Shown: in pieces, positions 16,786 to 22,325 of the stretch
Numbering within the stretch: the first letter of the stretch is position 1
How the letters are laid out: each line of letters begins with the position of its first letter
NCBI GenBank assembly: GCA_948760655.1
Contig: CAQBKK010000002.1
Coordinates: 1-44,317, forward strand
Length of the DNA stretch: 44,317 bases
Reading direction: 5' to 3'
Source of the DNA: an uncultured Bacilli bacterium
GTDB taxonomy: Bacteria; Bacillota_I; Bacilli_A; RF39; UBA660
Position numbers and translations under genes: made by a program
The notes under the pieces: model-generated
Database searches by the model: none
What the model was told of the DNA's origin: nothing
What the model saw: the letters and a program-made list of their open reading frames with translations, nothing else

Positions 16786-17565
16786 ATGGGCAAAGAAGTA
16801 ATAGAAACTAAAATTTTAGAATTACAAGCATTAATTCAAAAAGAGGAAAATAATGAAGTAAAAAAACAGCTAACGAAAATGTTAAAACAGCAATTGGATT
16901 TGCAAAAATATATAATTTCCTTCTCCAAAATAGGTATTGTAGCAGACTTATTCATAGGAAATAAAAATGCCAACTGGGAATACATTAAAAGGGCTTATGA
17001 AAAATTTGAAAAACGAGGAGTAAATGTTGTTTTTATAGTTGGAAATTTATTAAATGGTTATTCTAAAAATTTAACAGAAGAAGAGAAAAGAGAAATATAT
17101 TTAAAACAAAGAGAAGAACTACAAACCAAATATCCGCAAGATTTTAAAAACTATATGGTTTTAGGTGCTAGCGATTTTTATTATAAAGAAATGGGGATAA
17201 ATATAAAAACAGAATTAATGAGCTTGCGAAGTGATTTTATTCCTACTAACTTTAAAACAACGTATGTAAGATGGGAAAAGAGGAACTTAAAATTTGGATC
17301 TAAATTGGTAAAAAATGAAAACGAAGAAGCATTAGAAAAAGTAGATTTGAGTCTTTATGCAGGAGCAAATTATTTTAAATACCTAGCAGAATACCAAATG
17401 ATAAAACTTCCAACATGTAGTGACAACCACTTAAATAATCGCGATACGAAAGAATATCGTTCTGGCTTTATTATTTTAGAAAACAAAGAAAAAGGCATCA
17501 TTGCGAATCGTTATGGATTTACAGAAAAAGGTGTAGAACAAATTTTAAAAAGAGTGATAAAGTAA
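16786..17565 (+). CDS. Degenerate (probably inactive) metallophosphoesterase-like protein
   Basis: 259 aa. Residues 1-45 are a charged helix. From residue 48 the sequence follows the calcineurin-like metallophosphoesterase layout, but every metal motif is altered: DxH is D54-L-F, GD is G86-N87, GNH(D/E) is G127-A-S-D130 and GHxH is G193-A-N-Y. The surrounding fold signatures (IGIVADLFIGNK…VVFIVGNLLNGY, LPTCSDN, SGFIILE) match the family as I know it. A structural or ligand-binding role is inferred instead of catalysis. Start: GTGAGGA is 5 nt before ATG 16786, whereas GTG 16774 lies inside that ribosome site. Confidence 0.7.
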   Translation: MGKEVIETKILELQALIQKEENNEVKKQLTKMLKQQLDLQKYIISFSKIGIVADLFIGNKNANWEYIKRAYEKFEKRGVNVVFIVGNLLNGYSKNLTEEEKREIYLKQREELQTKYPQDFKNYMVLGASDFYYKEMGINIKTELMSLRSDFIPTNFKTTYVRWEKRNLKFGSKLVKNENEEALEKVDLSLYAGANYFKYLAEYQMIKLPTCSDNHLNNRDTKEYRSGFIILENKEKGIIANRYGFTEKGVEQILKRVIK

Positions 17566-17597
17566 TAAAAACAAATCTTTCTAAACTAAAAAATACA

Positions 17598-17606
17598 TGT
17601 TATACT
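17598..17606 (+). promoter_or_regulatory. Extended -10 promoter
   Basis: TGT TATACT (17598-17606); no good -35. It lies 28 nt before the start of the next gene. Confidence 0.55.
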
Positions 17607-17633
17607 AATACTAATAATAGAGGACGTGAGTTT

Positions 17634-18510
17634 ATGAAAGATTTTTTTAAAGAACATTATATTATAGTTTTGGTTATGTTTTTATTTTTAGGAATATTTT
17701 TGCTTCAATTTAAAAAGTTTGTATATGATGAAACATTGGCGTATGAAAAAGGAATTATAAAATGTCAAGAATATGAAAAAGTGCCAGTCACAGAAAAAAA
17801 TGAACAGCAAACAAAATATTGTCAAGAAATAAAAGAGGAAGGAGCAAACACCACTGACTTTTACACAACTTTAAATGAAATGCTTACGGTTTACTCCTCA
17901 AAACTATTTAAACCATATAATGCTTTCTTAGCACTGGTACTCCCTACTTTATATGGCTTATGCAAACTAAAAAAAGAAAGAATGAAGAGCAACGAAGAAA
18001 ATATAAATAACTATCGTAGAAATATATTTAAAAAAGCCTATCGTTATATTTGGCTCCTTCCAGTTATGCTTTATCTAGTATTATTTGTTTGTGGGATACA
18101 CGCAAATGGAATTGACTATGAAATAGCAAAATAATAAAATTTTAGCAAATCCTATTATGTATTGTCTTTCATACTTAATGCAAATTGTTTTTCACTCATT
18201 TTTATTAATTCATATTGCTTTAATTTCATTTAGAAAAACCCAAAAGTTACTCCCATCATTTTTACTAGCAGCTGTAATATATGGAATTTTATGGACAATT
18301 AGTGAAATTGGAGGAACTTTACTTCTAGAATTAATATTTAAAACAGATATAGGAATCGCTTTTAGTATAGGTTGGGGAATGTTTATTTACGATACAATAA
18401 AAGTATACTGGGCTCTATTTATTTCTTTCATGTGGATGTGTCTATCAGGTTTATTTGTCTATTTATTATATAAAGATAATGTAAAACTAAGTAAAACGTT
18501 TCAAAAATAA
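17634..18510 (+). pseudogene. Membrane protein gene split by a +1 frameshift
   Basis: Piece 1 (17634-18134, 166 aa) has a good ribosome site (GAGGACGTGAG), membrane segments near residues 7-27 and 143-161, and ends abruptly at TAA 18132. Piece 2 is open from 18127 to 18510; its first ATG (18157) has no ribosome site. It encodes three more membrane segments. Joined by a one-base shift in the A/T-rich stretch 18128-18140, the connection reads …DYEIA(K)NKILANPIMYCLS…, a natural hydrophilic loop, giving one polytopic protein of about 290 aa. No family is recognised. Programmed frameshifting or a sequencing error are alternatives to true decay. Confidence 0.6.
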
Positions 18511-18515
18511 TATGA

Positions 18516-18548
18516 AAATGTAAGTCAAAAAAAGACTTATATTTTTTT
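18516..18548 (+). terminator. Terminator
   Basis: AATGTAAGTC / GACTTATATT (about 18517-18526 and 18534-18543, one G-U pair), loop A7, then T-rich tail. A second, weaker GTCTT…AAGAC inverted repeat follows at about 18549-18584. Confidence 0.8.
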
Positions 18549-18605
18549 GTCTTTTAAAATGTAAAATTTTTTAAAATAAGACTTTATTTTCTTTGAAAAT
18601 AAAAT

Positions 18606-18634
18606 TTGACAAACATCGGGGGGGGGGTTATAAT
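18606..18634 (+). promoter_or_regulatory. Consensus promoter with a G10 tract in its spacer (putative phase-variable promoter)
   Basis: -35 TTGACA (18606-18611) and -10 TATAAT (18629-18634), both perfect, spacer exactly 17 nt. Ten of the 17 spacer bases are a run of G (18618-18627), the only such run in the window. Slippage by one or two G would change the spacer to 15, 16, 18 or 19 and so change strength. As sequenced the promoter should be fully on. Confidence 0.85.
18618..18627 (+). repeat. Homopolymer tract G10
   Basis: Ten consecutive G in a genome in which runs of more than five G are otherwise absent from this window. Confidence 0.95.
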
Positions 18635-18660
18635 ACTACCACTTTAAGGGAGTGGGAGAA

Positions 18661-19899
18661 ATGCCAGATTCTGTAGTGAAATTCATTCGTATAATGGAAG
18701 ATAAAATAGAAGAAACAGATAAAATGATAAACTTACTTTTATTACAAGGAAAGATTGAGTCTTTTCAAATTGAAGAAAATACATTTTCTTTTAACACTCT
18801 AAATAAGCATAAAGATAATTTAACAAAAGTAATAAGCTTTTTTAAAAAAGAAGAAAAGTATGGTACTTTATATAAATATTATAATTACATTTCTAAAATA
18901 TTACAAATTAGCAAGTTAACGGATTATGAAAAATTAGAAGTTTTAATGTATGCTGTAAAAATCAATATAGACTATTTAACAGAAGAAGTTTTGGATTTAA
19001 ATATTTTAAAAAAACTCTATGCTCCTCAAATGGATAGTAAAAAATTCAATCAATTATTAGAATCATTAGATATAAACACTTTATTGCAAGCAAAAGAAGA
19101 AACTTTAAGTGTCAAAAAACGCTTAATAAGAGAAAAAATTATAGAAGCTTTACGAGCAGGAGAAAAAAGCACAAGACTTTTTAAAAAATCTCATAGAAAT
19201 ATTGAAAATCACTACATAAATAAAATAGATTCTTACAATGAACAAGATATTCAATTTGTAATTGTATCTTTAAAAGCGATTGGTGTTGATAGAGAGCTAC
19301 AAGAAATTACTGCAAGCATTCTTAGAAAAAATTTACGAAAAATAGATGCTTTAAAAAGTAAAAAAATAAAAGAAAATAGAATAAAACCTTTTAAAAAAAC
19401 TATAGTTACACCCAAACCACTTTCTAAAACAGAATACGATGCAATTTATAGTAGGATAATGAAAATGTACGATATAGAAGAACACACAATAGTCAGTGCA
19501 TTAACAAAAGAAGAAATAGTGTATTTAGTAAGTCTAATGTTTAGAATAAATATACCAGAAAAAGAGATAAGAAAGAGTATTCAAAAAATCAATTGGCAAG
19601 GATGGAAAGCATACGATAATCCAATAAAAGAATTTAACGACTATTATGATAAATTACAAAAAAATAGTCATATAGGAGAAGTAGAAATAGCTTTACAAAA
19701 TATAAAAGAATATTTAAGCTTAGCATTTCTTCCAGAAAATGACAATGAATATGTAGGATGGAAACTAGAAATAGCAGAAGAACTAAAAAGAGTAAGAAAA
19801 ATTTTAAATCAAGATGATACCTACGAATTAGAAGAAGGTAGAAAACTCTATAGAAATAGAATCAAGGGAGAAGAAGCAGATGGAAGCAACAAAAAATAA
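18661..19899 (+). CDS. Unknown helical protein A of the G-tract promoter operon
   Basis: 412 aa, soluble, strongly helical, highly charged, no signal or membrane segment. It has two parts: a unique N-terminal region of about 245 residues and a C-terminal region (from PKPLSKTEYDAIYSRI to the end) almost identical to that of the next gene. Start ATG 18661 follows AAGGGAG by 8 nt; GTG 18652 is inside this site. First gene behind the G10 promoter, so expression is probably switched by slippage. It ends 20 nt inside the next gene. No family recognised; nuclease, kinase or toxin motifs were not seen. Confidence 0.8.
   Translation: MPDSVVKFIRIMEDKIEETDKMINLLLLQGKIESFQIEENTFSFNTLNKHKDNLTKVISFFKKEEKYGTLYKYYNYISKILQISKLTDYEKLEVLMYAVKINIDYLTEEVLDLNILKKLYAPQMDSKKFNQLLESLDINTLLQAKEETLSVKKRLIREKIIEALRAGEKSTRLFKKSHRNIENHYINKIDSYNEQDIQFVIVSLKAIGVDRELQEITASILRKNLRKIDALKSKKIKENRIKPFKKTIVTPKPLSKTEYDAIYSRIMKMYDIEEHTIVSALTKEEIVYLVSLMFRINIPEKEIRKSIQKINWQGWKAYDNPIKEFNDYYDKLQKNSHIGEVEIALQNIKEYLSLAFLPENDNEYVGWKLEIAEELKRVRKILNQDDTYELEEGRKLYRNRIKGEEADGSNKK
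19408..19862 (+). repeat. 455-bp direct repeat, copy 1 (3' part of gene A)
   Basis: Aligned by eye without gaps to 20681-21135 (offset 1273): 7 differences in 455 bases, six of them silent. Confidence 0.92.
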
Positions 19900-21163
19900 A
19901 TTAATTATTGAAATAAGAGAAATTCTAGCGAATATATTAAGTCGTTGCACTTTAGAAGTGATAGCTAGTATAAATGCTGAAGCTGAAAACAAAACAATTT
20001 TAGAAGCGGAAGATATAAAGGACATTTATGAAAAAACAACAGAACAAATCGAAAAAAATAGTCTAAAAGATATGTATTTTTCACTTTCTAATTTAATGAG
20101 ATTTGTAGGTGGAAAAAGTTTAGAAGAACAATTAAATATGGGGAGTGCCAAAATTCCACTACGAAAATATTTTTATTTATTTGACGACTTAAATTATGTA
20201 TTTAAAACAAGCACAATTTCTGTTCGAGAAAAATTAAACATGCTTTTAGATTTCATAAAAAATAATATAGAAAAAGGAATACTAGAGTGTCAAACAGATA
20301 ATGAACTTTTACGTTTAGGAGATAGAAATTTTTTTAAGACAGAAGAAGAATTGGATTTATTTTTAGAAGCGTATCAAAAATTAAAAGAAAAAAATGCCAC
20401 AAAAACCCTTGTAGATTCTGCACTACTGATTATTGACGATTGTAAAAAGCATGCCCAAACAATTATTGAAGCACATAGAATAATAGATAAACATTATTTA
20501 AAAAATAATGAAAATAGAAAAGACGAAGATATTGAAAAAGTAATAGAAGCTTTTGAAAATCTAGAAATAGATAAAACTTTATGTTCTACTATTAAAATAG
20601 TCCTCGTAGAAGATTTAGAAAAAGAACGTAAGAAAAAAATAAAAAATGGGGTATCTATAAAAAATAGTATAAAAATAGAAACACCCAAACCACTTTCTAA
20701 AACAGAATACGACGCAATTTATAGTAGGATAATGAAAATGTACGATATAGAAGAACACACAATAGTCAGTGCATTAACAAAAGAAGAAATAGTGTATTTA
20801 GTAAGTCTAATGTTTAGAATAAATATACCAGAAAAAGAGATAAGAAAGAGTATTCAAAAAATCAATTGGCAAGGATGGAAAGCATACGATAATCCAATAA
20901 AAGAATTTAACGACTATTATGATAAATTACAAAAAAATAGTCATATAGGAGAAGTAGAAATAGCTTTACAAAATATAAAAGAATATTTAAGCTTAGCATT
21001 TCTTCCAGAAAACGACAATGAATATGTAGGATGGAAACAAGAAATAGCAGAAGAACTAAAAAGGGTAAGAAAAATTTTAAATCAAGACGATACCTACGAA
21101 TTAGAAGAAGGAAGAAAACTTTATAGAAATAGAATAAATGCCGAAAAGAAAAAGGAAGACTAA
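19880..21163 (+). CDS. Unknown helical protein B, paralogue of protein A
   Basis: 427 aa. Same architecture as the upstream protein: an N-terminal region of about 265 residues that resembles protein A only faintly (comparable helical blocks, e.g. HRNIENHY versus HRIIDKHY) and a C-terminal region near-identical over about 150 residues. ATG 19880 follows GGGAGAAGCAG and overlaps the end of the first gene by 20 nt, so it is probably coupled translationally. The only amino-acid difference in the repeated part is Leu to Gln (GWKLE/GWKQE). A terminator follows at 21140-21180. Function unknown. Confidence 0.8.
   Translation: MEATKNKLIIEIREILANILSRCTLEVIASINAEAENKTILEAEDIKDIYEKTTEQIEKNSLKDMYFSLSNLMRFVGGKSLEEQLNMGSAKIPLRKYFYLFDDLNYVFKTSTISVREKLNMLLDFIKNNIEKGILECQTDNELLRLGDRNFFKTEEELDLFLEAYQKLKEKNATKTLVDSALLIIDDCKKHAQTIIEAHRIIDKHYLKNNENRKDEDIEKVIEAFENLEIDKTLCSTIKIVLVEDLEKERKKKIKNGVSIKNSIKIETPKPLSKTEYDAIYSRIMKMYDIEEHTIVSALTKEEIVYLVSLMFRINIPEKEIRKSIQKINWQGWKAYDNPIKEFNDYYDKLQKNSHIGEVEIALQNIKEYLSLAFLPENDNEYVGWKQEIAEELKRVRKILNQDDTYELEEGRKLYRNRINAEKKKED
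20681..21135 (+). repeat. 455-bp direct repeat, copy 2 (3' part of gene B)
   Basis: Partner of 19408-19862. Recombination between the copies would delete 1273 bp and leave a single hybrid gene. Confidence 0.92.
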
Positions 21164-21181
21164 ATCTTTTCTTTTTTTTAA
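21140..21181 (+). terminator. Terminator of the A/B operon
   Basis: GAAAAAGGAAGA pairs imperfectly with TCTTTTCTTTTT around the loop CTAAA, which overlaps the stop codon, followed by T-rich sequence. Confidence 0.6.
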
Positions 21182-21234
21182 TTTTTAATCTGGAATTCAC
21201 TTTTATGTGTCATCTTTTTATAAATTTAAAAAAA

Positions 21235-21262
21235 TTAGCACTCATATATTGACAAGTGCTAA
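21235..21262 (+). promoter_or_regulatory. CIRCE operator 1 (spacer one base long)
   Basis: TTAGCACT (21235-21242) and AGTGCTAA (21255-21262) form a perfect 8-bp inverted repeat with 12 bases between, one more than the canonical CIRCE. It overlaps the -35 box, where bound HrcA would block RNA polymerase. Confidence 0.85.
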
Positions 21263-21277
21263 GCATACTATTATAAT
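21249..21277 (+). promoter_or_regulatory. Promoter of the hrcA-dnaK operon
   Basis: Perfect TTGACA (21249-21254), 17-nt spacer, perfect TATAAT (21272-21277). Confidence 0.93.
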
Positions 21278-21281
21278 GGTA

Positions 21282-21308
21282 TTAGCATTTTGATGAAAAG
21301 AGTGCTAA
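21282..21308 (+). promoter_or_regulatory. CIRCE operator 2 (imperfect left arm)
   Basis: TTAGCATTT (21282-21290), N9, GAGTGCTAA (21300-21308): canonical spacing, perfect right arm, two mismatches in the left arm. It covers the start of the transcript and ends just before the hrcA ribosome site. Confidence 0.8.
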
Positions 21309-21320
21309 AGAGGTGATAAA

Positions 21321-22325
21321 ATGGACGAAAGACAAAATGAGTTATTAAAAGCCATCGTCGAGTCGTACATAAAAACCGTAAAACCAATAGGCTCAAAATC
21401 CTTATGTAAGAAATTTAATTGTTCAAGTGCAACCATTAGAAATGAAATGGCCGTGTTAGAAAATTTAGGTTTTATTGAAAAAAATCACATATCATCGGGA
21501 AGAATTCCGAGTGAAGCAGGTTATAAATATTATGTAGAACATTTAATGAAACCAAAAGAACTTACAGGAGAAGATGTTTTAAAATTACAAACCATTTTTA
21601 GAAACAATGAACTAGAACTAAGCGATTCGATTAATAAAACTGTAGAAATCATTAGTGAACTTACACATTATACAAGTATAATCTTAGGAAAAAGTTCAAA
21701 GGAAAACACATTGAGCCAAGTAAATATTATTCCGATTGCCAACAACAAAATTGTAGCAATTGTATGTACAGACAAAGGAATTGTAAAAAACAAACAATTT
21801 CTTCTAAAAAATGAAGCAGAAATCAAAGAAATTGTAAAAACAAGTGAAATCATAAACAGAATGCTTGTAGGGACTCCGATTAATGAAGTAGGGGAAAGAT
21901 TAGAGTTTGAAATTAAACCAATCATAAGTAGACAAATTAAGCAGTACGAAACAGTTTATAATATTTTTGCAGATGCGTTTAATGAGTTTTTAAATAAAAG
22001 AGAAAACGTTTATTTTGGAGGAAAAACCAAAATATTTAATGAACCAGAGTATAACGATGCATTAGAAATAAAAAGATTGGCAAGTAAATTTGAAGACAAA
22101 GATTTTATTAAAAGAATTGAAGAAGACGATGTTGAATCGGGAGACATTAAAGTATATATTGGAGAAGAAAATGCTTTTGATCCTAATGTCACAATTATAA
22201 AAAGTAAATACAAAAGGAATGGAGAAGAAGGAACCATTGCTATTGTAGGTCCAAAACGAATGGAATATGACCGGGTAGTAGGGTTACTTGAATATTTACA
22301 AAAAGAATTAAACGAGGAGGAGTGA
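21321..22325 (+). CDS. hrcA: Heat-inducible transcription repressor HrcA
   Basis: 334 aa. N-terminal winged helix with the family's KPIGSKSLCKKF and SSATIRNEMAVLENLGFIEK, followed by SGRIPSEAGYKYYV and the C-terminal GAF-like domain (IAIVGPKRMEYDRVVGLLEYL). HrcA binds CIRCE with GroEL help and represses chaperone genes; two CIRCE-like boxes lie in its own promoter, so autoregulation is direct. ATG 21321 follows AGAGGTGATAAA. The stop overlaps the ribosome-site region of grpE. Confidence 0.97.
   Translation: MDERQNELLKAIVESYIKTVKPIGSKSLCKKFNCSSATIRNEMAVLENLGFIEKNHISSGRIPSEAGYKYYVEHLMKPKELTGEDVLKLQTIFRNNELELSDSINKTVEIISELTHYTSIILGKSSKENTLSQVNIIPIANNKIVAIVCTDKGIVKNKQFLLKNEAEIKEIVKTSEIINRMLVGTPINEVGERLEFEIKPIISRQIKQYETVYNIFADAFNEFLNKRENVYFGGKTKIFNEPEYNDALEIKRLASKFEDKDFIKRIEEDDVESGDIKVYIGEENAFDPNVTIIKSKYKRNGEEGTIAIVGPKRMEYDRVVGLLEYLQKELNEEE

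Follow-up and report, generated by a model that had tools for sequence, protein, structure and literature searches.

A poly-G promoter spacer as a probable contingency switch in an uncultured lineage of Bacilli

We analysed a 44,317-nt contig of an uncultured Bacilli bacterium (this whole stretch is called the window below), and consider it very likely that a tract of ten G in the spacer of one promoter is a contingency switch, which acts through the -35/-10 spacing, drives a two-gene operon and is one of a set of such switches in the lineage. Direct reading of positions 18606–18634 agrees exactly with the original prediction of consensus TTGACA and TATAAT hexamers separated by a 17-nt spacer with ten G. 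The tract had also been said to stand out from AT-rich DNA, and it does: the GC content of the contig is 29.3%, the G10 tract is the only run of more than five G or C among the 44,317 bases, and a first-order model with the tract removed expects 0.0012 runs of at least ten in the window. Dinucleotide shuffles of the window give a mean of 0.07 G8 matches. The Shine-Dalgarno region and the start codon of gene 1 are reached no more than 27 nt downstream of the -10 hexamer (Table 1). The hairpin upstream of the promoter was missed by the terminator scan and is a weak candidate. With regard to promoter inversion, four inverted-repeat pairs were found in 17400–22000, none of which closely flanks the promoter; the single pair with arms on either side of it is 71% complementary, with the arms 3.7 kb apart. 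Perfect TTGACA/TATAAT pairs with a 17-nt spacer occur twice in the window, the second at 21249–21277 ahead of hrcA. This hrcA-grpE-dnaK promoter overlaps an inverted repeat (together 21235–21277) resembling a CIRCE element.

Table 1. Features of the poly-G promoter and the two downstream genes in the window.
Feature	Positions	Strand	Remarks
A/T-rich hairpin ahead of the promoter, weak; may be a terminator that insulates the switch	18522..18553	+	-6.8 kcal/mol, z -2.4
-35 hexamer TTGACA	18606..18611	+	consensus; read directly
Spacer AACATC-G10-T, 17 nt (GGGGGGGGGG between AACATC and T)	18612..18628	+	identical in the G001 ortholog (L046)
Homopolymeric tract of ten G, proposed to switch by slipped-strand mispairing	18618..18627	+	sequence, chance models, relatives
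-10 hexamer TATAAT	18629..18634	+	consensus; read directly
Shine-Dalgarno region AAGGGAGTGGGA ahead of ATG 18661, very short 5' leader	18646..18657	+	
Gene 1, 412 aa, apparently cytosolic, family unknown (P0001)	18661..19899	+	alternative start GTG 18652
C-terminal repeat copy 1	19402..19862	+	461 nt, 98% identical in DNA to copy 2
Gene 2, 427 aa, paralog of gene 1	19880..21163	+	start overlaps end of gene 1 by 20 nt
C-terminal repeat copy 2	20675..21135	+	pairs with copy 1

The promoter is conserved in the closest relative found, an 'uncultured Tenericutes' MAG (G001). An alignment of gene 1 relatives, used to scan species-representative genomes, yielded two loci. The G001 locus (L001) contains the paralog pair followed by hrcA-grpE-dnaK-peptidase-dnaJ, in the same order as in the window (gene names read from translations). 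Its contig begins scrambled just ahead of the gene 1 ortholog, and another G001 contig (L046) ends with TTGACAAACATC-G10-TTATAATACCAACAACTTAAGGGGGAATTCA, the tail of which is the leader of that ortholog. The core TTGACA-G10-TATAATAC is identical in the window and G001, the DNA further upstream aligns poorly or hardly at all, and the Shine-Dalgarno region of the G001 ortholog reads CTTAAGGGGGAATTCATAATG. Protein identity between the two is 93% for HrcA, 93% for DnaK and 41% for gene 1. The tract is G10 in both observed copies of the gene 1 promoter, which also fits a tract of fixed length. Sister contigs of the window locus exist, as shown by P0002, encoded on a contig of 6,647 bp, and by P0003.

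We then surveyed 145 genomes of the G001 family with a strict promoter pattern (TTGACA, 0–12 nt, at least seven G, 0–10 nt, TATAAT). After removal of two duplicate rows, in which the same promoter was paired with a second -10, the pattern gave 87 distinct promoters across 18 of the 145 genomes and was absent from the other 127, while the reversed pattern and the poly-C (C7) pattern were each found in 0/145. The promoter tracts of the family always carry G on the non-template strand (87 G vs 0 C). Tracts of at least nine G, wherever located, occur at least once in 80/145 genomes, with a maximum of 48 per genome, and are missing from 65/145. Since a version of the pattern with at least eight G matches 16/392 genomes of the phylum, the poly-G promoter trait is patchy. 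A looser variant was also seen: in G135, which carries 34 tracts of at least nine G genome-wide, TTGCAA followed by G8–10 and TATAAT covers 23 of the 24 tracts read in 20 stretches. In G023, most of the tracts read belong to a repeated upstream element in which no clear -35 stands at the normal distance. Loss of mismatch repair was rejected as the cause of slippage; MutL_C is present in 136/145 family genomes, including the tract-rich G001, G121, G134, G135 and G137. A viral origin was likewise set aside, the gene 1 family having no relative among viral contigs. Eight viral contigs match the promoter pattern; six have a GC content of 0.44–0.55 and 5/8 have a spacing outside 16–18 nt. In one IMG/VR contig with a GC content of 0.33 (L120:5051–5083), a 21-nt spacer containing G11 separates TTGACA from TATAAT, and a ribosome-binding site and ATG come next; it is possibly a virus or prophage with a similar poly-G switch.

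The spacers of the 87 promoters from 18 genomes range from 15 to 22 nt with a mode of 19 nt (36/87). Seventeen-nucleotide spacers make up 8/87 of the poly-G promoters vs 46/108 of the ordinary TTGACA/TATAAT pairs listed, which peak at this length, and spacers of 16–18 nt make up 30/87 vs 78/108. Fisher's test on 17 nt against all other lengths gives p ~1e-7, a nominal value in view of related copies within genomes and unequal genome numbers. Four genomes supplied the 108 ordinary pairs, G060, G121 and G134 completely and G001 partially, with G029 and G092 not included; from this control we excluded one promoter of G121 with G6 and two of G060 in which the G run is interrupted. In the three completely covered genomes, 0/37 poly-G promoters have a 17-nt spacer. 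The spacing is at least 18 nt in 67/87 promoters, 51 of which lie at 19–22 nt. The overall mode owes much to G121, where near-identical promoters form most of the 21 copies, mainly G9 (spacer 19) together with G8 and G10. Other genomes differ: G082 has 15–16 nt, G029 15–20 nt and G001 15–19 nt (2/8 at 17). The 23 TTGCAA promoters of G135 have 19 nt in 18 cases, 18 nt in four and 17 nt in one. Since the modal spacing is off the optimum, many poly-G promoter copies may well be OFF at any one time, as their spacer lengths suggest.

Direct comparison of copies points the same way. Among groups of flank-identical promoters within one genome, the G count differs in 8 of the 10 tabulated; the table leaves out a differing G060 pair (G8/G9), and its G6 member, from G121, comes from the listing of ordinary pairs. 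The dispersed spacers and the G-count differences are the traces that a slipping tract would be expected to leave. The comparison of tract lengths among related genomes that had been proposed at the outset gives variation among flank-identical copies in relatives and G10 in both the window and G001. Taken as a whole, the phase-variable reading is supported by the conservation in G001, by 87 promoters against empty controls, and by the spacer and G-count variation, from which slippage itself is inferred.

What lies behind these promoters was examined in a sample of 38 (the one in the window, at most two per genome from the survey, and those in G001 and G002 stretches). A readable downstream ORF follows 32/38, and 24 of the 32 products, with the window included, have a strongly hydrophobic segment in the first 60 residues. 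A Pfam scan of 30 products gave clear hits for two ABC-transporter ATPases, three Gp10_C proteins and two camelysin-like proteins (Peptidase_M73); single products matched a sigma-70-like factor, a type IV-pilin-like N-terminus and a family-2 glycosyltransferase, and most others gave no clear hit. The products behind such promoters in relatives are probably often surface proteins. In G135 (L132–L151), a readable ORF follows 14 of the 23 promoters; each of the 14 products carries a membrane segment at its N-terminus, and 12 fall into one family whose complete members have 305–320 aa.

G tracts also occur inside genes. In G001, 13 tracts lie 30–62 nt behind a start codon (L034, L035, L037, L039–L041, L044, L047, L050, L062–L064 and L001:9887–9896); as assembled, one (G9) keeps the reading frame and 12 (G10 or G11) break it. 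Most of these 13 ORFs have an N-terminal sequence in common, from which L047 and L050 diverge. Among other coding tracts of G001, those of L042 and L043 and the second tract of L048 are in frame, and several are out of frame (L049, L057, L061). Because tracts are found both in promoters and in coding sequences, G-tract variation in this lineage would act on transcription as well as on reading frames.

These data bear on a different reading, that the G-rich spacer is a fixed promoter element of constant length which tunes promoter strength, DNA shape or the binding of a regulator. The sameness of G10 and its flanks in the window and G001 would suit such an element, and the occurrence of G, never C, on the non-template strand in all 87 family cases fits a sequence-reading protein or a strand-specific structure. 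However, tract length and total spacing vary widely within one genome, even among flank-identical copies, and the 67 promoters at 18 nt or more, 51 of them at 19–22 nt, have poor spacings for sigma-A. Moreover, coding sequences of G001 carry G tracts of comparable length that change the reading frame, and a promoter protein cannot explain these. We judge the fixed element to be improbable.

It is less probable still that the tract, or its length, is an artefact of sequencing or assembly. With two-colour Illumina chemistry, a dark cycle is recorded as G. One G001 contig (C37, L058) ends in G48 and another (C23) starts with scrambled sequence rich in C and G (L001:1–60), both precisely at tracts of this type, so that reads do fail there; the G48 run and the scrambled contig ends are probably short-read dark-cycle artefacts. 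The window tract, however, has coherent sequence on either side, which completes a promoter, a ribosome-binding site and a gene, the G001 promoter was assembled independently with the same length, and the control patterns are empty. Contig breaks were considered as evidence of length heterogeneity, as 10/36 G001 matches with at least eight G lie less than 300 nt from a contig end, but were discarded, since G48 at the end of C37 and the scrambling at the start of C23 indicate sequencing failure. G tracts seem to fragment these MAGs, and short-read assemblies may break at them.

We next considered the genes behind the window promoter, which the original prediction had described as two genes of unknown function. 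Consistent with this, neither gene has a match above cut-off in Pfam or NCBIfam, and no PADLOC model was matched; a PDB sequence match to a PNPase fragment (E 0.018) is too weak to be trusted as a guide to function. Because the two genes overlap by 20 nt and no strong internal promoter was found (no plus-strand site with more than 10/12 matches between their starts), they are probably co-transcribed from the poly-G promoter. Their N-termini differ and their C-terminus is common to both. Neither product has an N-terminal membrane segment, which is unusual for contingency genes, and both are apparently cytosolic. The C-terminal repeats are as similar within G001 (99% over 435 nt) as within the window, at 98–99% DNA identity, vs ~77% between species, and this difference points to homogenisation within each genome, that is, to concerted evolution. 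P0003, which combines the start of gene 1 with the end of gene 2, is either a product of repeat-mediated deletion or a misassembly. Both observations would be expected if variation at the locus came mainly from recombination between the near-identical repeats, with the poly-G tract incidental, but this is hardly credible, as P0003 is encoded on a contig of 1,588 bp that may be misassembled across the repeat, and the tract and its recurrence at unrelated genes are left unexplained. Both processes can coexist.

The gene 1 family is small. Of the 7,997 candidates that were scored, eight proteins, the window's own included, reached E < 1e-3, and searching again with a wider alignment of 16 rows brought in one more (P0009). 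The family was found in 10/145 family genomes and had no relatives among the viral contigs. At the homolog loci L103–L116, no G or C run of at least seven was seen save at the scrambled G001 contig start. Specifically, the G138 homolog lies shortly before hrcA and downstream of a frame ending like ValS, behind a tract-free promoter-like sequence, and the G081 homolog follows a TTGACA/TATAAT promoter whose 17-nt spacer contains no tract. Because these other homologs have no tract, the switch would either have arisen on the branch that leads to the window and G001 or have disappeared elsewhere. Fast divergence, switchable expression and the lack of a membrane segment would be in keeping with a possible role of the two genes in phage resistance or another conflict.

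According to the switch that we favour, slipped-strand mispairing during replication would add or remove G in the tract, and each G gained or lost would shift the -35/-10 spacing of a sigma-A-type promoter by one base. With G10, the spacer of 17 nt equals the peak spacing of ordinary promoters in relatives, and the sequenced copy would therefore be ON, in keeping with what had been predicted. A change of one G is expected to weaken the promoter and larger shifts to turn it OFF, as general promoter knowledge and the precedents of porA and tp0126 suggest. The switched unit would be the operon of two overlapping, fast-evolving paralogs with apparently cytosolic products, and the locus would be one among the poly-G promoter and coding-sequence switches of the lineage.

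To our knowledge, poly-G promoter-spacer switches have been documented in a few host-adapted pathogens. The porA switch of Neisseria meningitidis, a diderm pathogen unlike the present lineage, is one locus per genome. Campylobacter and Helicobacter have many poly-G tracts in an AT-rich genome, coding ones included, and their poly-G contingency genes are mostly coding frameshift switches; in the present lineage, unlike these, promoter switches are frequent too. The claim that a spacer poly-G is an established switch in Neisseria-type pathogens is borne out by passages of PMC7864442, which describe poly-G between -35 and -10 in porA and in Treponema pallidum tp0126, an OmpW homolog, with transcription best at 17 nt. 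According to the same passages, porA transcription is lost when the 17-nt spacing is shortened, and most of the T. pallidum tracts analysed vary in length (PMC7864442). The window promoter resembles both in its spacer poly-G. Unlike tp0126, which encodes an outer-membrane protein of a spirochaete pathogen, it belongs to a Tenericutes-labelled lineage and precedes an operon of two paralogs whose products are apparently cytosolic; relatives carry up to about twenty promoter copies per genome.

By lineage, the nearest known system is probably that of Mycoplasma hyorhinis, a Mollicute, whose vlp paralogs each have their own homopolymer promoter, turned ON or OFF by insertions and deletions in the tract, as a portion of PMC10502178 describes. 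The vlp genes differ in that the tract is poly-A rather than poly-G and that they encode surface lipoproteins of a cell-wall-less pathogen. A vlp-like repertoire fits G135, with its 23 promoters and one predominant membrane-segment family, whereas the window products have no such segment. For Ca. Mycoplasma girerdii, part of PMC5476646 gives metagenomic evidence of dinucleotide-repeat phase variation. Our searches of the open-access PMC literature gave no report of poly-G switches in uncultured bacteria of the RF39 or Tenericutes type. The kind of switch is known; within these searches, the scale of its use in a Tenericutes-type lineage appears to be new.

Several consequences follow for work on these organisms. 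Metagenome reads that already exist allow phase variation to be tested directly in uncultured bacteria. A natural spacing series is provided by genomes like G121 and G135, with about twenty near-identical promoters. Uniform expression is not to be assumed. A broader picture, which we put forward tentatively and would sooner doubt than assert, is that some species carry about 20 or more poly-G promoters per genome, most of them at 19 nt, some two bases from the optimum, and few at 17 nt, so that every cell makes a small, changing subset of surface proteins, and that in some species, where a sigma-70-like factor lies behind such a switch, a single slip could flip a regulon.

Two sigma-70-like genes are associated with G tracts. 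In G138 (contig C68, L098/L131), TTGACATTTGCTTC-G10-TATAAT with a spacer of 18 nt precedes a sigma-70-like protein of ~720 aa that has regions 1.2, 2, 3 and 4 and long extensions; two other proteins with region 1.2 are encoded in G138. BLAST gave no match between gene 1 and this poly-G-driven sigma-like protein. If the sigma factor is truly phase-variable, a whole regulon would switch. In G001 (contig C31; L130, L057), a very long sigma-70-like ORF with a 956-aa open frame at region 1.2 contains a coding G9 tract, and the frame closes shortly after the tract as assembled. Additionally, contigs C4 and C25 of G029 carry several G8–G10 promoters ~1.4–2.3 kb apart in the same orientation, and a G10 promoter on its contig C1 (L089) precedes a family-2 glycosyltransferase, a possible phase-variable glycan locus.
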